IMG/VR virus record: IMGVR_UViG_3300030451_000521
Location: 1 to 40,367 of that record
Length of the DNA stretch: 40,367 nt
Strand: one strand, 5' to 3'
Source: a virus
How positions within the stretch are numbered: position 1 is the first letter of the stretch; every line of letters begins with the position of its first letter. This document shows positions 2,732 to 37,599 of this stretch, in pieces. The translations under genes were made by a program, and so were the position numbers. The notes below the pieces were generated by a model, which saw only the letters and a program-made list of their open reading frames with translations, searched no databases and was not told the DNA's origin.

Positions 2732-3993
2732 TACATCACCTTGCTGTAATCAACAGCGTAGTAACCATCCTTAACTACAACTGCATCTGGTTTAACTTCT
2801 AATACTTCTTGAGCTAACACACCTTCGCTTGGCTCTGCTTCAGAATACAATTTTTTACCTTTATCATTCCAATCCCATGTGTACCAACCGATACCTGGCT
2901 CAAGCTCGCCTATTTTTGTAATGTTTTCTTTTAATTCAATATCTGAAAAACCCATGGCTCCAAGCCCAGTCATAATAGTTCCAGCAGCACCAACTGCTTG
3001 TCCTAGTGCTGTTGGTTGTTGATAGACACCACGTTGATATGCACTTGATCCAGTGCCACCAGAAATACCTCCCATTGGTGATCCAGCAAGTAATGCTTGA
3101 CCAGTTTGTAATCTTTGTAATGGTTCTTGAGCAAGCTGTTGTGCTGCACCAAACTGTCTTGATAGTGCGGCTTGTTGTGTCGCCTGTCCTTGAGCTCCAA
3201 GTTGGTTTAGTAAATTAATCTGACTTCCCAACATGCCTTGACCTTGTTGGCCTAGACTTGCAATACCTTGACCTAAGGCCGCTTGCTGTCCACCTAAAGC
3301 TGCTTGTTGTCCAGCTAATCCTGATTGTAAGTTTGCAAGTCCAGCTTGTCTTCCTTGTTGTGCTTCAAATGATTGTCTTGCAGCGTCTTGTGCTCTGCCA
3401 AAACCTTGACTTCTAAGAGCACCTACAGCCTCAGCTGCACCTCTGCCTGTTTGTCTTGCTAATTCTTCTTGGGCTATTCTACCTCTTGATCCACCAAACG
3501 CACCTTGGCTTATAGCTCTATCACGCAATCCTATGTCTTGTTGTGCTGCTGCTCGGTTTATGTCTTGAAGTGTTTGTTGCACCACTTGATCTTCGTATGG
3601 ATCATAAAATCTTGAAGCACTGCTAGGATCAAACATTTGAGTTGCACCAATACCACTTTGCTCTGCTCTTTGTAATGCACCTATACCACCTGATACAGTT
3701 CCAGCACCCTCTTCTATCATACCTCTAGCTTGATCTACAAAAGGCATGAACTGTCCTAAGCCTTGTGAGGCTTGTCTTGCTTGTATTTGTAGTGGTGTAA
3801 GACCTGCTGTTTGTTCTATAGGTATGTCTCTAGGTTGAGATATTAAACCCTCATATTCACCAGGCGATCCAAAGTAAGATGCTAGTATTCTTCTTGAATA
3901 ATCTTCTATGTAAGGAGATACAAAAGAATAACCAGTTTGGGGGGTGGTTATAATGTCTGCTTCTGGTGTTTTTTTTGTTTTACTAAGACACAT
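2731..3993 (-). CDS. Gln/Ala-rich internal virion protein with C-terminal S74 chaperone domain
   Basis: The 420-residue protein has a central low-complexity region (about residues 75-310) rich in Gln, Gly, Ala and Leu, with repeated GQQAALG-type elements. The last 72 residues form a compact intramolecular chaperone/peptidase S74 domain: FSDIELKENI starts at about residue 349, with the Ser and Lys of the self-cleavage pair five residues apart (S350, K355), followed by the LAQEV motif and a YYAVDYSKV ending. S74 domains normally end tail fibres or spikes and cut themselves off after trimer folding. Here the domain sits on a Gln-rich body, so the mature product is probably an elongated virion protein of about 348 residues. 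Confidence 0.8.
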   Translation of the reverse strand: MCLSKTKKTPEADIITTPQTGYSFVSPYIEDYSRRILASYFGSPGEYEGLISQPRDIPIEQTAGLTPLQIQARQASQGLGQFMPFVDQARGMIEEGAGTVSGGIGALQRAEQSGIGATQMFDPSSASRFYDPYEDQVVQQTLQDINRAAAQQDIGLRDRAISQGAFGGSRGRIAQEELARQTGRGAAEAVGALRSQGFGRAQDAARQSFEAQQGRQAGLANLQSGLAGQQAALGGQQAALGQGIASLGQQGQGMLGSQINLLNQLGAQGQATQQAALSRQFGAAQQLAQEPLQRLQTGQALLAGSPMGGISGGTGSSAYQRGVYQQPTALGQAVGAAGTIMTGLGAMGFSDIELKENITKIGELEPGIGWYTWDWNDKGKKLYSEAEPSEGVLAQEVLEVKPDAVVVKDGYYAVDYSKVM

Positions 3994-5776: not shown

Positions 5777-7659
5777 TACCTTCTACCATCGTTTTTAACA
5801 TCTATTCTACTAGAGCCTAGCCTCCATCTAAAACCTGTTCGCACTCCTGTAGCTGCGTCATCATCAGATTGAACTCTAAGAACTAGCTGCCTGCCTCTAG
5901 CACGTGTAAAATTTTGTTGTGTAGAGCTAGTAACATCGTTTGTTGAGTTGATGGTTAAGGTATCGCCTGGAAAGTTACGAGTTTTAAGAACAAAGTTTAT
6001 TTGACCACCAGATGCAGACGAACCAAAAAACTTTACATCAGGAATAATTCTGCTAATAAAACCAAAACTATCTCCATCTTCTATATCTATATCGCCTGAC
6101 TCTATATAAACATTGTCCATTGGCGATCCGTCATCATCGTCAGAGTCTTCGTGTATATACAAATAACTTGTGCCGCTATCTTTACCTGTTGCTTTTGGCT
6201 TTTCAAATACGCCTTCGTCTAGCCAAGCTGTTCTTGATAGGTTTCCTATACTCCATACACCTTCTAAATAATTATAAGTAACATATCTATCTATTTCCTC
6301 AGATGAAGATGAACAGTAAAACCAACCAACCTCGTTAAACTCTTTGTTTGTAAAAGCTATGGTTTTAAATGCTTGAGATGAATTAAAATCATCTAACACA
6401 TAATTTAATACGCTACATACTAATCTTTTTACTGATCCTGAATAGGTATAAAAACCATCTCTTGCCATCCAATACACGCTGTCTGGCGTGTTTATTGCAG
6501 CATTAGGAGATATAAGTCCTACGTTTTCATTTATAAGATTAACACCAAAAGTAAAAGGTGCACCTACAAACTGCATACTATACAAAGATGTATCAGTCCA
6601 AATAAGTATTTCTTGTCTTGATCTTAGACCACCTACTATTTGTGATCCTGAAGATAGTCTTAGTGAACCTGCTGTATTAGTAGCAGTTGGCTCCCAGTTA
6701 GTTGCACTTTCTTGATCTGAAAATGCTATAAGCATAGGATCTATAACACCTGTTCTTGAGCTACCACTAATAGGATCAGCACCTAAAACTATAACATGCC
6801 TATCAATATCGCTTACTATGACTTGTAATCCTCTAGTTGGTACAAGATTAGCACCACTTAAACTACTTAACTCAACTGCTCTAGTGCTTGTTCCATTAGT
6901 TTTGTCCCAATAATAAATACTGCCTGCTCTTGGATTTATAATTAAATCTTCTCCAAAAGCATCGTGTGACCACAATCTTAATTGTCCAGTTTCTGTTATT
7001 GAGGTACCTGATCCCCATGTTCCAGCACCCCATGTTCCAGCACCCCAACCTGTTGATGCTACAAAAACATCTAGTCCTACATTTATTTGATAAGTTCCTA
7101 CAACGGAGGAGCCACCATTACCACTATCGGAGGAGTTTGCAGTAACTGTAGAACCAGATGTATCTTTTGCCTCTATGGTATAACTATTTGCATTTACTAC
7201 AGTTGCTATTTGATATTCTTGATTTAATACAGCAGCAGTAATATTACCACCTAAACTAGATGCACCACTAAATGTAACAAAATCGTTTTGTACAGCACCG
7301 TGACCTGTATCTGCGACTGTTATTGTTGCATCACCATTGCTTGCAGAAAATGTTACATCGCCTGCACTTGTGGTTGATCTTATTGGAGTAACATCATCAA
7401 AAGCAGACCCCTCTTTAATGTAATATTTAAGTGTAGTGCCAAGTCCTAAATATTTAGTTGAGTTTAAAGCAACCCAACCTAACAGTGCTCTGCCTGTGCC
7501 TAAGTAAGATGCACTGGTTTCTTTTTCCCAACCACCTATTTTTTCTGGTAGTCCTTTTCTAAACCTAACTAAATTACCATCTGTCCAACCGCCCTTACTC
7601 ATAAGGTCAGTCATTTCTTTGTTGATGCCTGGATTAAATTGTAATTTAGTTAATGGCAC
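5776..7659 (-). CDS. P22 gp10-like tail hub / packaged-DNA stabilisation protein
   Basis: The 627-residue protein begins MPLTKLQFNPGINKEMTD, followed by GGWTDGNLVRFRKGLPEKIGGW, a signature I associate with tail hub or 'stabilisation' proteins of P22-like podoviruses in marine genomes. About residues 95-185 form a beta-rich insert (DVTFSASNGDATITVADTGH, then QNDFVTFSGA) resembling FCCH/Ig-like modules of virion proteins. The C-terminal half is rich in Tyr/Trp beta strands. In P22 gp10 sits between the adaptor and the needle and closes the tail channel. The length is longer than P22 gp10 because of the insert. Assignment rests on recalled similarity and gene order. Confidence 0.72.
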   Translation of the reverse strand: MPLTKLQFNPGINKEMTDLMSKGGWTDGNLVRFRKGLPEKIGGWEKETSASYLGTGRALLGWVALNSTKYLGLGTTLKYYIKEGSAFDDVTPIRSTTSAGDVTFSASNGDATITVADTGHGAVQNDFVTFSGASSLGGNITAAVLNQEYQIATVVNANSYTIEAKDTSGSTVTANSSDSGNGGSSVVGTYQINVGLDVFVASTGWGAGTWGAGTWGSGTSITETGQLRLWSHDAFGEDLIINPRAGSIYYWDKTNGTSTRAVELSSLSGANLVPTRGLQVIVSDIDRHVIVLGADPISGSSRTGVIDPMLIAFSDQESATNWEPTATNTAGSLRLSSGSQIVGGLRSRQEILIWTDTSLYSMQFVGAPFTFGVNLINENVGLISPNAAINTPDSVYWMARDGFYTYSGSVKRLVCSVLNYVLDDFNSSQAFKTIAFTNKEFNEVGWFYCSSSSEEIDRYVTYNYLEGVWSIGNLSRTAWLDEGVFEKPKATGKDSGTSYLYIHEDSDDDDGSPMDNVYIESGDIDIEDGDSFGFISRIIPDVKFFGSSASGGQINFVLKTRNFPGDTLTINSTNDVTSSTQQNFTRARGRQLVLRVQSDDDAATGVRTGFRWRLGSSRIDVKNDGRR

Positions 7660-7661
7660 GG

Positions 7662-8105
7662 TTATACCTCATGCCATTCTTTGCCTTCAAATAATAAGGC
7701 TTCTGCTTCTCTCCTTCTTATTAAACCTTGTAAAACTTTACCACCTGCTTTATTCCAGCGTTTAATTTGTGCAGGCACTCCCTCATAATCTTTATCGTTT
7801 AATACTTTTAACAAAGTAGAGTTTTTCAGATTGGTTGACCCAAGATTAAATGTCCAAGATACTAAAGCATCAAATTGATTTTGTTCTAATGGCACTTCAA
7901 CAAGTTTGTTTACAGCTTCTTCAAATACCTCTACATCTTCAAGTAGTAACATGTCTGCTCTTTCTTGTGATATTTCCATACCTTCGTTTACATTATTAGT
8001 GCTTCCGTAACCTATAGTCCAAACACCTGCCGCACATTTATAAGCCTCAAGTTCACAACCCTCAAATTTTTTAATTAACGATAATCCCTCTTGTGATATT
8101 TCCAT
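7662..8105 (-). CDS. Endolysin, GH24 lysozyme (Glu-Cys-Thr type)
   Basis: The 147-residue protein is a single lysozyme domain of the T4/P22 family that cleaves the glycan backbone of peptidoglycan at lysis. The active-site spacing is preserved: E15 in KKFEG, C24 in YKCAAG and T30 in VWTIGYG. Cys replaces the usual Asp, a variant I recall from other phage lysozymes. The start is placed at ATG 8105-8103 because a strong AAGGAG box lies just upstream; the longer frame up to 8162 lacks such a site and would add 19 non-conserved residues. No signal peptide is seen, so release depends on the holin encoded immediately upstream. Confidence 0.9.
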   Translation of the reverse strand: MEISQEGLSLIKKFEGCELEAYKCAAGVWTIGYGSTNNVNEGMEISQERADMLLLEDVEVFEEAVNKLVEVPLEQNQFDALVSWTFNLGSTNLKNSTLLKVLNDKDYEGVPAQIKRWNKAGGKVLQGLIRRREAEALLFEGKEWHEV

Positions 8106-32750: not shown

Positions 32751-32996
32751 TTAACCCTTTACGTTGTATTTTACTTTAAATCTTAAAAGTTCCTGTTTCA
32801 TTTCAGCTATTTCTTTAGAATCTCTGTTATAAGCTTTATTGCTTATGTAAGGGGAATCTTTTTGTAGCCTATTTTCTTTTAACTGGATTCTCTCTTTCAT
32901 TCTGTCAGCTTTTTTCTTAACAACCTTGTCCATAACTGTTTTTACAGGCTTACTAATATGTTGTAAGCCTTTTCTAGCTATTTCTTTTTTAGGCAT
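32751..32996 (-). CDS. Small basic helical protein (81 residues)
   Basis: The product begins MPKKEIARKGLQHISKPVKT and is nearly all helical and Lys/Arg-rich, with DKVVKKKADRMKERIQLKEN and EIAEMKQELLRFKVKYNVKG. It lies between the portal (one-base gap) and the 236-residue basic protein (one-base gap). A small terminase subunit would be expected near the terminase gene, but this protein lacks a clear DNA-binding motif, so that role is only a possibility. Confidence 0.62.
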   Translation of the reverse strand: MPKKEIARKGLQHISKPVKTVMDKVVKKKADRMKERIQLKENRLQKDSPYISNKAYNRDSKEIAEMKQELLRFKVKYNVKG

Positions 32997-32997
32997 G

Positions 32998-33708
32998 TTA
33001 TCCTTTTAAAGCTCTACCAAAACCTCTTTTAGCCGCACCGACACCTCTTGGTTTTGATCTTCTAGCAGAAACTACGCCACCTGATTTCAGTGCAGGTACT
33101 TTTCTTGTTGTACCGCCTAAGCCTGTAGTTCCAAGTTGTGATTTACCTTTTGATTTTCTAGCAGCTCTTCTAGCTTGTCTACGTTCTTTAAAAGTTGCAA
33201 AGCCTATTCTTTCTTTTCTACGCTCTTGTCTTTTTTGTTTTCTAGTTTTTGCTTTATTATTTTTATTAACTTCGCTTACTATTTTTTTTGCTGCAGCATC
33301 GATGTCTATTTTCTTTCTACCACCAGCTCTGTTATAAGCTGCTAATCCAGAGGTATCAGTTTTGTAACCTTTCTTCTTAAGATCATCTTTGGTTACAGCT
33401 ACATAAGACTTACCGTTAAAAGTAAATTTAGTACCCTCGCCTTTTGCTCTAGCTGTTCTAAAAGCGTCATCAAAAGTTTTACCACCTTTGTTTTTGTTAG
33501 CTCCTGCTATGCCAGCCCCTATAACTGCCGTACCAGCTGCTATTGGAGCTACTGCTGCTGGTATTGCACGTTTAGGTGTAGTTGCCGTTTTAGGTGTAGT
33601 TGCTGCTGGAGGTGCAGTTTTTTTAGGTCTAGTTTTAGGTTTAGGTTTAGGTTTAACTTTTTTAGCTATTTCCTTAGCACCTTTTTTTACGATTGCTTTT
33701 TTTACCAT
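32998..33708 (-). CDS. Basic virion-associated protein with KPKPKPK tract
   Basis: The 236-residue protein has an N-terminal Lys/Pro tract (KKVKPKPKPKTRPKKTAPP, about 16-34). An Ala-rich hydrophobic stretch (AAVAPIAAGTAVIGAGIAGA) follows, and then a folded segment KTFDDAFRTARAKGEGTKFT with FNGKSYVAVTKDD. I recall this block (form F-x-x-AF-x-x-AR-x-x-G-x-x-x-F-x-W/F-NGK-x-Y) from many phage virion proteins. An Arg/Lys-rich region and a terminal box LKSGGVVSARRSKPRG complete it. It may be an internal virion protein that contacts DNA. Confidence 0.68.
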   Translation of the reverse strand: MVKKAIVKKGAKEIAKKVKPKPKPKTRPKKTAPPAATTPKTATTPKRAIPAAVAPIAAGTAVIGAGIAGANKNKGGKTFDDAFRTARAKGEGTKFTFNGKSYVAVTKDDLKKKGYKTDTSGLAAYNRAGGRKKIDIDAAAKKIVSEVNKNNKAKTRKQKRQERRKERIGFATFKERRQARRAARKSKGKSQLGTTGLGGTTRKVPALKSGGVVSARRSKPRGVGAAKRGFGRALKG

Positions 33709-33729: not shown

Positions 33730-35199
33730 TTAATAATATATTCTTTGTTTCGGCACTGGCTCATCGTCTTCCTCATCTGAATCAAGTCTTACGAAGTTGC
33801 CCTGACGAAATCTTAGTATAGCCTGTGTTGTCGAATCTACAAAATCATCGTTCTCTCCATACGGAAAGGCCGCACATTCTTCTATCACCTCTTCTGCGAA
33901 GATCGTGTCTGGAGCCCAGACCATACCAGCTTCAAACACTGGCGATACCGAATGCACTCGAGTGACTTTGTCTCTTCCTTTCGTTGGACGATAGTTCACA
34001 ACTGGGATTCCCATCATTCTCAACTCATGCGTCAAAGGAGTACCACTTGCTTGAGATTCTATCAGCACTGAGTCTGGTTGCCAATACATAAATTCATCGT
34101 AAGCTGTCGCTTTCAACTCAGGAAAGTCCCACCTACCTCGTTTGGCATCGAGCAAAATGATGGATTCTGGTGCACCGTCACTAGGTCGAAACACTCCCCA
34201 CGTAGTAATCGCAGAGTAGTCAGCCGTTTCTTTAGAACTAAACGCAGTATCGTAGGATTGCAGTATGTAAGTTGTGTTAGGTGGGTCGTCATGCTCCCAT
34301 GGTTGCCACCAATCTCGTTTTAACAGGGCACCTTCTTCGGAAGTTGGGTTCTGCATGTACTGAGCATTCCATTTTGCTACAGGAATCGAGGCTTTTACGG
34401 ACTCAAGCTCTTCTATTTTCCAAAACTCAGGCCATAAAGGCTCGCCACTGTCCAAAATAGCAGGTAATTCTAGTATATCCCACTGATCTGCATGATCTTC
34501 AGACATTCTTTTGATAAGTTTCTCGGTTAAATCAAGCGTACTCCACCTTGTCATGACAATAACTATGATTCCGCCTGGTTGTAAACGCTGTCGCGGTCCA
34601 GAGGTGTACCATTCGTAGGCAGATTCTAGGGCAGTTGGGCTCAAAGCATCCTGTTCAGAGTGTGGATCGTCAATAATCAGCAGATCCGCACCACGACCTG
34701 TGATAGCACCGCCGACTCCTGCGGCAAAATACTCGCCACCGTGGTTGGTTTCCCACCTACCTGCTGATTTGCTGTCGGCAGAAAGTCTAACCTTGTCGAA
34801 TATTTGCTTATATTCGTCTGTATCCATGAGATTTCTAACTTTACGCCCAAACCTTGCAGATAGTTCGGCGGTGTGAGTCGTTTGCATGATCTTCATATCA
34901 GGGTGCAAGCCCATAATCCAACTAGGAAAAAACACGGACGCAAACTCAGACTTGGTATGACGAGGTGGCATGTTCACGATTAGGCGTTTAGTCTTGCCCT
35001 TGGCTACATCTTCTAGCTTTTTGGCAAACAATCTATGGTGTTCGCCCTCAATAAAACCGTCCCATACATTTTTTACATAAGCTATGAAGTCTTCTTTAGA
35101 TTTTTTGCTGGTGTCTAGCTGATCAATACGATTTTTGATCATGACCATCTCTTTTAGAGCCTCGTCTGATACGTGTTCTAGTTTGCTGTCTTTTCCCAT
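33730..35199 (-). CDS. terL: Terminase large subunit
   Basis: The 489-residue protein is the DNA-packaging motor. ATPase motifs: a Walker A-like MPPRHTKSE (77-85), Walker B LLIIDDPH (173-180, acidic D177/D178), and the coupling motif TRWS (217-220). Nuclease motifs of the RNase H-like domain: QSYDTAFS (314-321, D317), LIESQASG (379-386) and DDFVDSTTQAILR (D455). All expected catalytic residues are present and the length is normal. It overlaps the XF1762-like gene by 22 bases. The nuclease cuts concatemeric DNA during packaging into the portal encoded downstream. Confidence 0.96.
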   Translation of the reverse strand: MGKDSKLEHVSDEALKEMVMIKNRIDQLDTSKKSKEDFIAYVKNVWDGFIEGEHHRLFAKKLEDVAKGKTKRLIVNMPPRHTKSEFASVFFPSWIMGLHPDMKIMQTTHTAELSARFGRKVRNLMDTDEYKQIFDKVRLSADSKSAGRWETNHGGEYFAAGVGGAITGRGADLLIIDDPHSEQDALSPTALESAYEWYTSGPRQRLQPGGIIVIVMTRWSTLDLTEKLIKRMSEDHADQWDILELPAILDSGEPLWPEFWKIEELESVKASIPVAKWNAQYMQNPTSEEGALLKRDWWQPWEHDDPPNTTYILQSYDTAFSSKETADYSAITTWGVFRPSDGAPESIILLDAKRGRWDFPELKATAYDEFMYWQPDSVLIESQASGTPLTHELRMMGIPVVNYRPTKGRDKVTRVHSVSPVFEAGMVWAPDTIFAEEVIEECAAFPYGENDDFVDSTTQAILRFRQGNFVRLDSDEEDDEPVPKQRIYY

Positions 35200-35645
35200 C
35201 TAAATTTAAGTTGTCCTGTAACTGGTTGCCATTCTCTACCTGGTCTAGTTGTCCATCCTTTGCCTTTGTCCCAACCGCCAGTCTCTCCTATCATTTTCCA
35301 TCCTACAGCTTTCATGGTAGATCCAGACTCTTTTTGCAATGTATAGGTAATCATTCTTTTACCACCCATTTGTTGCCAAACTCTCCAAGATTTTCCATAC
35401 AAAAATGAATTTGTATTTTTTGGAGCGTCATCTAAAACGCATGATCTAGTTACTTCTGCTGTAAATCCATCGTCTAACTTTCTAGCAACTGGTCTTCCTA
35501 CGATAATAACTCCAACAAGTTTATCATTGTAGCTGGCACCTAAGCAAAATTTAGCACCCTGTACTTTTTTATTATGTCTATGGAAGTTTTCAACAAATAA
35601 ATTTGCTTCCTTTAAATTTATAGGAACCACTTGTAATCTCTCCAT
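35178..35645 (-). CDS. XF1762-like phage protein (acetyltransferase-type fold)
   Basis: The 155-residue protein starts MERLQVVPINLKEANLFVEN and has FHRHNKKVQGAKFCLGASYN, then DKLVGVIIVGRPVARKLDDG and AEVTRSCVLDDAPKNTNSFL. These match the XF1762 family I know from phages, a small group with a GNAT-like core. A histidine pair in FHRH and the RPVAR segment are typical. Its substrate is unknown. It is the first gene of the leftward late operon; its ribosome site is weak (GAGG about 11 bases before ATG), and two 10-base direct repeats lie in its leader. Confidence 0.78.
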   Translation of the reverse strand: MERLQVVPINLKEANLFVENFHRHNKKVQGAKFCLGASYNDKLVGVIIVGRPVARKLDDGFTAEVTRSCVLDDAPKNTNSFLYGKSWRVWQQMGGKRMITYTLQKESGSTMKAVGWKMIGETGGWDKGKGWTTRPGREWQPVTGQLKFRWEKTAN

Positions 35646-35857: not shown

Positions 35858-35887
35858 TTGTAATGTGTCTATAAATAATGTTATAAT
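35858..35887 (+). promoter_or_regulatory. Rightward early promoter P1
   Basis: TTGTAA (35858-35863) and a perfect TATAAT (35882-35887) are 18 bases apart, a good sigma70-type promoter. It lies about 45 bases before the first early ATG. The spacer and -10 context GTGTCTATAAATAATGTTATAA closely resemble those of promoter P2 (37341-37370), so the two are probably read by the same factor. Confidence 0.72.
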
Positions 35888-35931
35888 AACTTTGTTATTA
35901 ATTAACAGGCGTGAGCCAAGGAGAACTTAAA

Positions 35932-36275: not shown

Positions 36276-36276
36276 A

Positions 36277-36293
36277 GATCTGAAAATCAGATC
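36277..36293 (+). repeat. Hairpin element GATCTGAAAATCAGATC, copy 1
   Basis: A perfect 7-base inverted repeat with an AAA loop. It starts in the T run of the preceding terminator and ends two bases before the AAGGAGAACTT ribosome box of the next gene. An identical hairpin occurs at 36596-36612. It may be a processing or stability element that defines the 5' end of the next message, or an antitermination site. Confidence 0.75.
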
Positions 36294-36308
36294 AAGGAGA
36301 ACTTAAAA

Positions 36309-36572: not shown

Positions 36573-36595
36573 GGGGGAGTAATCCCCCATTTTTT
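36573..36595 (+). terminator. Rho-independent terminator after second early gene
   Basis: GGGGGA (36573-36578), loop GTAA, TCCCCC (36583-36588), then ATTTTTT. It starts ten bases after the stop codon and its T run leads directly into the next GATCTGAAAATCAGATC hairpin. Confidence 0.82.
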
Positions 36596-36612
36596 GATCT
36601 GAAAATCAGATC
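36596..36612 (+). repeat. Hairpin element GATCTGAAAATCAGATC, copy 2
   Basis: Identical to copy 1 at 36277-36293 and again wedged between a terminator T run and an AGGAGAACT ribosome box. Identity of non-coding sequence across two junctions implies selection or recent duplication of a whole expression cassette. Confidence 0.78.
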
Positions 36613-36627
36613 TAGGAGAACTAAACA

Positions 36628-36942: not shown

Positions 36943-36955
36943 TCATAGCCACCTA

Positions 36956-36984
36956 TTGCAAATCAATAACCGAAAAGGTATCAT
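36956..36984 (+). promoter_or_regulatory. Candidate promoter of the small RNA
   Basis: TTGCAA (36956-36961) and TATCAT (36979-36984) are 17 bases apart, a moderate sigma70-type promoter with ideal spacing. The predicted start near 36990 coincides with the first base of the perfect hairpin at 36990-37009, which supports it as a dedicated small RNA promoter. Confidence 0.55.
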
Positions 36985-36989
36985 TCGGT

Positions 36990-37063
36990 CATCTATATAT
37001 CTATAGATGTTAAGTTCTCCAAACTTAGATACAACTAAGGGAGCTGAAAAGCTCCCTTTTTTT
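36990..37063 (+). ncRNA. Candidate small RNA with anti-Shine-Dalgarno segment
   Basis: From a predicted start near 36990 the RNA would be about 74 bases. It has a 5' hairpin CATCTATA/TATC/TATAGATG (36990-37009), an unpaired segment that begins TTAAGTTCTCC (37010-37020) and runs to about 37036, and a terminator hairpin with a 7-base T run (37037-37063). The TTAAGTTCTCC segment is an exact 11-base complement of the ribosome box GGAGAACTTAA of the two genes at 35932 and 36309. It pairs over 8 bases with the box of the gene at 36628 and over 7 with that at 37402. The architecture is that of bacterial trans-acting small RNAs that block translation. Expression is not shown by sequence alone. Confidence 0.6.
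37037..37063 (+). terminator. Rho-independent terminator ending the small RNA
   Basis: AAGGGAGC (37037-37044), loop TGAAAA, GCTCCCTT (37051-37058), T run to 37063. The stem arms are identical to those of the capsid terminator at 24943-24970 although the loop differs, so the phage reuses one stem sequence. Confidence 0.88.
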
Positions 37064-37098
37064 ATGCTTGAATTTTATTGATCTGAATTACTTTATCT

Positions 37099-37229
37099 AC
37101 GCCAAAGGTCGCACATTTCAAATCGCACGCAATAGGTCGCAAAATCTTATAAGAACGCAGAAGGTCGCACATTTTTAGAACGCAACAGGTCGCAAATTTT
37201 ATTTAGAACGCAAAAGGTCGCAAGTTTTA
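37099..37229 (+). repeat. Five iteron-like direct repeats (ACGCAnnAGGTCGCA)
   Basis: Units start at 37099, 37127, 37155, 37180 and 37208 (spacings 28, 28, 25 and 28). Each carries ACGC(A/C)nnAGGTCGCA followed by (A/C)A(A/G)T and a T-rich tail. The CGCA half-sites within a unit lie 10 bases apart, one helical turn, and the units are spaced regularly, as in protein-binding iterons of replication origins or in operator clusters. AT-rich DNA follows (37261-37390). A further degenerate GGTCG appears at 37246. Function is inferred. Confidence 0.75.
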
Positions 37230-37340
37230 TGGTCTGAAAGTTTTTGGTCGTGGGTGTTTGAGGGTGGGCGAGACAATAAAAGAGTGTTTATTGAGTGTTT
37301 GTTTTATCTGTGCTTATCATTAAATATTGTATATTATTTG

Positions 37341-37370
37341 TTGAACTTGTGTCTAAAATAGTGTTATAAT
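37341..37370 (+). promoter_or_regulatory. Rightward promoter P2
   Basis: TTGAAC (37341-37346) and perfect TATAAT (37365-37370) are 18 bases apart. The sequence GTGTCTAAAATAGTGTTATAAT closely matches P1. It lies 32 bases before the ATG of the downstream operon and right after the iterons, so repeat-binding proteins could affect it. Confidence 0.75.
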
Positions 37371-37401
37371 TATCTTGTATTTAATTTAAAGGAGAACAAA
37401 T

Positions 37402-37599
37402 ATGAATATTAAATTTACAGACAATGAACTTTCATTATTGAAAGGGTGTTTTGATATGAATAGTGGCGACACTTACGCAAGAGGAACATTATTTCCACAA
37501 TGGCTTAAAGAAGATTGTAATCTTACTGAAAAGCAAACAGAAAAATTATTTGAAAGCATAGACAAAAAATTTACAAAATGGATAGGGGAGGAAAAATGA
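37402..37599 (+). CDS. Early hypothetical protein (65 residues)
   Basis: The protein begins MNIKFTDNELSLLKGCFDMN and ends KLFESIDKKFTKWIGEEK. An AAAGGAGAAC ribosome box precedes the ATG. The N-terminal pattern (INLN/KFTDNEL) is like that of the next two proteins (RINLNEKELAML, NLSTKELAIV), suggesting three related small proteins in a row. It is the first gene after P2. Function unknown. Confidence 0.68.
   Translation: MNIKFTDNELSLLKGCFDMNSGDTYARGTLFPQWLKEDCNLTEKQTEKLFESIDKKFTKWIGEEK

Follow-up and report, generated by a model that had tools for sequence, protein, structure and literature searches.

Direct CGCA repeats in the early region of a relative of HTVC023P-type pelagiphages as a candidate iteron-type origin

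The question raised by this locus is whether five regularly spaced direct repeats among the early genes of a phage mark a start of replication, an operator of early transcription or something else. The window, meaning the whole stretch of 40,367 bp that was analysed, represents part of the genome of a phage related to the HTVC023P-type pelagiphages (TerL identity 59-62%), the nearest TerL proteins being those of phage 023Pt_psg01 (62%) and of the Pelagibacter phages HTVC027P and HTVC023P (59%). Left of 35.6 kb the genes are leftward and comprise terminase, portal, capsid, tail and a FecR/adenylate cyclase block, which fits the curli cluster reported in HTVC023P-type pelagiphages (PMC9599517); right of 35.9 kb they are rightward, small, mostly of unknown function and of early type. 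A Mom-like DNA modification gene (Pfam PF25680, phrog_1384) is located between TerL and the early region at 35178-35645 and looks like a recent insertion, since about 35184-35637 is without a match in G001 or G002, two of the relatives described below.

The array and the gene-free gap

The array lies on the forward strand and comprises unit 1 (ACGCCAAAGGTCGCA, 37099-37113), unit 2 (ACGCAATAGGTCGCA, 37127-37141), unit 3 (ACGCAGAAGGTCGCA, 37155-37169), unit 4 (ACGCAACAGGTCGCA, 37180-37194) and unit 5 (ACGCAAAAGGTCGCA, 37208-37222). Start-to-start distances are 28, 28, 25 and 28 bp, exactly as an earlier note on this DNA had described. All units but unit 1 match ACGCAnnAGGTCGCA exactly. In a complete unit, CGCA-N6-CGCA, the distance between the two direct half-sites is exactly 10 bp and thus one helical turn, as had also been claimed; in unit 1 the first half-site is degenerate and reads CGCC.

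Chance does not account for these repeats. Matches to the unit with at most two mismatches number 8 in 40 kb where 0.67 are expected, a count reached by none of 100 shuffles, and the three located outside the array all carry two mismatches. Within its 130 bp the array has 10 CGCA tetramers, all of them on the same strand, and the maximum in any other 130 bp of the window, on either strand, is 3. CGCA-N6-CGCA was identified 4 times in the intergenic region (0.003 expected) and nowhere else in the 40 kb. A coding role was discarded, given that the 28-bp period breaks the reading frame and the segment contains stops. A role at the RNA level was discarded as well: the array folds more poorly than 200 of 200 shuffles (z +3.2), and without RNA structure it should therefore act as DNA.

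At 459 bp, the gap that contains the array (36943-37401) exceeds every other gene-free stretch of the window, in agreement with the earlier note, which had also placed an AT-rich stretch and promoter P2 beside the repeats; both are present. The first is a conserved AT/GT-rich block (37261-37340, forward strand; alignment A2). It is a candidate unwinding element and contains a TTATC triad, intact at 37304 and 37314 and degenerate in its first copy near 37288. By nearest-neighbour duplex energy, the 100 bp of lowest stability in the window (37315-37414) abut the array. P2 is a sigma70-type promoter (37341-37370, forward strand; TTGAAC-18-TATAAT, with TG before a -10 box conserved in relatives), its -35 box about 120 bp downstream of the array, and is followed by a 65-aa gene of no known function (37402-37599, forward strand). 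Promoter P1 of the early operon (35858-35887, forward strand; TTGTAA-18-TATAAT) is without an array unit. Two further sequence elements were observed in this region: the palindrome GATCTGAAAATCAGATC, at 36276-36305 and 36592-36622, right after two terminators and ahead of the next ribosome-binding site; and GATC just ahead of the array units, at about 37080 in the window and also in relative G003, an N6 methylase being encoded by relatives.

Upstream of the array the gap contains a conserved structured RNA of four hairpins (36969-37063, forward strand; fold z -5.2), the last of them an intrinsic terminator (37037-37058), with a possible pseudoknot between 36978-36982 and 37028-37032. Across 11 sequences 96% of cells are paired, pseudoknot included, and double-sided changes number 21 against 6.7 in shuffled alignments, none of them in helices 3 and 4; this covariation is strong but is not a formal probability because the rows are related. 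Rfam gave no match at the gathering score, and below it only two at E 0.085 and 0.91. Within the RNA, AAGTTCTCC (37012-37020, forward strand) has its CTCC in the hairpin 3 loop and is complementary to GGAGAACTT, which serves the early genes as ribosome-binding site. GGAGAAC ahead of a start codon is found almost only in early genes, at 35920, 36296, 36615 and 37391 in the window and at 7431, 8912 and 9201 in G001, where it also precedes an HTH gene (52382). In the diverged relatives L036 and L037 the RNA reads AGTTTTCTCC and the ribosome-binding sites GGAGAAAACT (L037) or GGAGAAAA; judging from these sequences, seed and target have changed together. The structured RNA is thus a candidate trans-acting phage sRNA on early translation, whose loop would pair with early-gene ribosome-binding sites, including that of the HTH regulator.

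Relatives and a candidate initiator

IMG/VR was scanned with three queries, namely TerL, the array and the AT block, and about 18 distinct phage arrays were identified in relatives, located in the early region opposite TerL. Among 33 distinct units compared, position 4 (C) is invariant and positions 3, 9, 12, 13, 14 and 15 vary in three at most. Spacing, whose conservation in relatives the earlier note had made a test of its reading, is conserved though flexible: 28 bp is the commonest distance and dominates, but spacings of 25-27, 31, 34 and 35 bp occur too, with a far unit at 61-62. In several relatives this is ATGCGAAAGGTCGCA, 62 bp past unit 5, in a segment missing from the window. The number of units varies even among close relatives. 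Scattering of the motif across many loci, the other refuting case named in the earlier note, was not seen: the window and G001 each have a single site, in G002 the array is split, and genomes of the G003 type have two sites. In 84,980 prokaryote species genomes the pattern was matched only by two chance repeats (L115 and L116), dropped as unrelated since their periods are 15 and 24.

At every main site read the order is terminator, array, AT block and promoter, shared by the window, L008, L018, L024, L027, L036, L037, L102 and L105; upstream of it lies the structured RNA, of which the terminator is part. In the alignment of close relatives (A1) the AT block shows the highest pairwise identity of the region (0.90). 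The TTATC triad keeps a 16/10 spacing in relatives; in L018, L024 and L027 it starts 55 bp past the final CGCA, L027 having lost the middle copy. The repeats beyond chance, the arrays of some 18 relatives, the fixed order, the conserved AT block with its low duplex stability and the geometry of the triad all argue for an origin. Against it stand the unit spacing of 28 bp, which does not correspond to an integral number of turns of the helix; the unit core, in close relatives barely more conserved than the array spacers (0.87 vs 0.83); and the array flank, which in G001 and G003 is not the least stable DNA. GC skew, proposed earlier as a check for an origin signal at 37.1 kb, gave none, and it was dropped as a marker because it follows gene orientation.

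Different repeats were observed in other phages and were not treated as homologous to the array. L049 (4493-4675), L054 (4872-5088) and L078 (4304-4507), with TerL identities of 63-65%, carry GGTCGGG-rich repeats at several points of the early region, and nearly all of these share one strand. In the isolates HTVC023P (L107 12469-12567 and 14910-15056) and HTVC027P (L106 16912-17020) the same early region by TerS/TerL has other direct repeats between genes, some beside promoter-like sequence.

The earlier note had seen no initiator gene, which holds for the window because it is a fragment; complete relatives encode a PrimPol-AAA helicase. G001 (56.6 kb), which covers most of positions 1-35,200 of the window at 95-98% identity, carries on one strand a Cas4-type exonuclease, a helicase, an SSB-like protein and an AAA protein; then, past a divergent gap, an HTH regulator, the 678-aa PrimPol-AAA protein, two DNA methylases and TerS (2921-3409). 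After TerS the coding strand changes, and the array (7608-7738) lies among the small early genes that follow. The HTH protein was dropped as array binder, since its own divergent region in the complete relatives carries the inverted repeat GGTGTGAGTTAAA and no array. Array and PrimPol were identified together in five records (G001, G002, G009, G010 and G027), which supports an origin. Residues 587-671 of PrimPol align with winged-helix domains, and its C-terminus is probably of this type; the matches are middling (Z up to 7.2) and the model is of low confidence (pLDDT 42; a first model, at 33, was too poor), which weighs on the other side. A PDB sequence search with PrimPol gave only a chance match. 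The protein is a candidate initiator for the array.

The loci scanned around PrimPol contain CGCA clusters that are coding or unrelated, but no array. This distance speaks against an origin, those of SaPIs and PICIs lying beside the initiator gene. In G001, on the other hand, no space is left for an origin directly after PrimPol, because the next reading frame overlaps its end, and this favours an origin elsewhere.

Comparison with known systems

The closest likeness is to iteron origins. As in these, the repeats are tandem, direct, in one orientation and beyond chance, and beside them lies an easily melted AT-rich region with short repeats, the stability signal being weaker in G001 and G003. 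The same arrangement of repeated initiator sites adjoining an AT-rich region with its own short repeats is known from RK2 oriV and F oriS (PMC4081077). The differences from theta plasmids are the spacing (28 bp, against the 21-22 or so usual there), the two identical half-sites that make up each unit at a distance of 10 bp, the lack of an adjoining Rep gene and the absence of any noticed DnaA-box cluster.

The pri-rep-ori modules of SaPIs and PICIs share a primase-helicase initiator with a C-terminal DNA-binding domain, of winged-helix layout in SaPI Rep (PMC7581432), and iterons by an AT-rich melting site (PMC6092414, PMC7581432). Their origins directly follow the 3' end of the initiator gene, and iterons flank the AT-rich region in two sets, whereas the phage iterons are on one side only and the initiator gene is far away. 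The pRN1 protein ORF904 likewise combines primase, helicase and C-terminal winged helix, although there a large stem-loop 3' of the gene takes the place of iterons (PMC4234260).

The operators of lambda CII and P22 C1 also comprise two direct tetrads with 6 bp between them on one helix face. The lambda CII sites are TTGC-N6-TTGC and overlap the -35 box, and an activator gene goes with them; the phage array has CGCA instead of TTGC and five units far from the -35 box, and no CII-family match was identified among the proteins scanned.

Origin, operator and weaker alternatives

The most likely single reading, given about even chances, is that the array is the core of an iteron-type origin overlapping early-promoter control. 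A sequence-specific protein would read ACGCA-N5-TCGCA on one helix face and load head to tail across the five units; the array would then nucleate an initiator complex, the AT-rich block would melt and the PrimPol-helicase would be loaded. The upstream terminator would shield the region from read-through, and the early promoter would read away from it. From the features described above we infer the binding of a protein to the array, the identity of this protein and a start of replication at this place. The array-binding protein would probably affect P2 too. Rep proteins often bind both their iterons and their own promoter, so that one site can be origin and operator at once.

The main rival, clearly possible though less likely than an origin, is an array for the control of early transcription, in which a phage or host regulator would bind the half-sites cooperatively upstream of P2, and in some relatives upstream of one or two further early promoters, switching early gene sets with no role in replication. 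It owes this rank to the relatives that carry extra arrays at other promoters. A three-unit array precedes another promoter in G003, L013, L018 and L067, ahead of a 139-aa gene in the G003 group; in L036, L037 and L040 extra units follow further terminators and precede the MGNRA gene, and L036 and L037 contain more units before the structured RNA. The TTATC block is absent from the extra arrays of the two scanned (G003 and L036), which counts against the origin reading. The layout terminator-array-promoter, found at nearly every site read with the exception of the split array of G002, suits an operator, as do the tetrads 6 bp apart on one face that recall the CII sites. The syntenic region of HTVC027P carries gp30, gp33 and gp34, expressed early or early-to-middle (PMC12753301). 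An operator would not account for the conserved AT block, with its fixed TTATC spacing, that separates array and promoter; moreover, the array is distant from the -35 box, P1 lacks a unit and the sole HTH regulator found in complete relatives has its own site. The iteron likeness claimed earlier stands for the direct units, the half-sites, the adjoining AT-rich DNA and their conservation, but the extra promoter arrays keep the operator in contention.

A wider reading, considered rather unlikely, takes the gap as one control region in which an iteron origin is joined to an sRNA damping early translation as the phage enters replication; the coupling of sRNA and array is speculation.

A packaging site (pac or cos) bound by the small terminase is very improbable. 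Tandem small-terminase sites exist elsewhere, as in lambda cosB, and about 2 kb separate the array from TerL, but TerS is several kb away in G001, and instead of one site per genome by the terminase genes the G003 group, L036 and L037 have two or more arrays. The GCACATGC-type repeats just before TerS would suit a packaging site better. In G001 these GCACATGC and TGCAC-rich repeats (L094 2689-2769) are a possible packaging site, and similar DNA was observed in relatives at L139 5370-5540 and L141 7250-7420.

Least probable of all is a recombination hot spot for the swapping of small early genes, with repeats that let cassettes in and out: the G002 array is split by a cassette of about 0.6 kb (G002 32844-33578, equal to L091 12844-13578) with an opposite-strand ORF (33110-33451), its own terminator and similar units at both junctions, unit number varies and the first gene after P2 differs among relatives, but the invariant 10-bp half-site geometry and the conserved neighbouring blocks are left unexplained and recombination is more likely a by-product. 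The G002 record (73.9 kb; loci L090-L093) contains two diverged copies of the tail/FecR/adenylate cyclase region, at 1-15 kb and 54-73 kb, and is probably a chimera or a joined assembly, not a single genome.

Pelagiphages infect SAR11 and are among the most abundant viruses of the ocean. In the open-access papers found on their genomes no origin is described for this group, and none of the early genes of the isolate HTVC027P has a known function (PMC12753301). The reading of the array as an iteron-type origin is partly supported by the comparisons above. If the adjacent sRNA proves real, the phage would possess an RNA directed against ribosome-binding sites of its own early genes. With a defined candidate origin of 300 bp and a named candidate initiator, replication of the group would become testable in a surrogate host.
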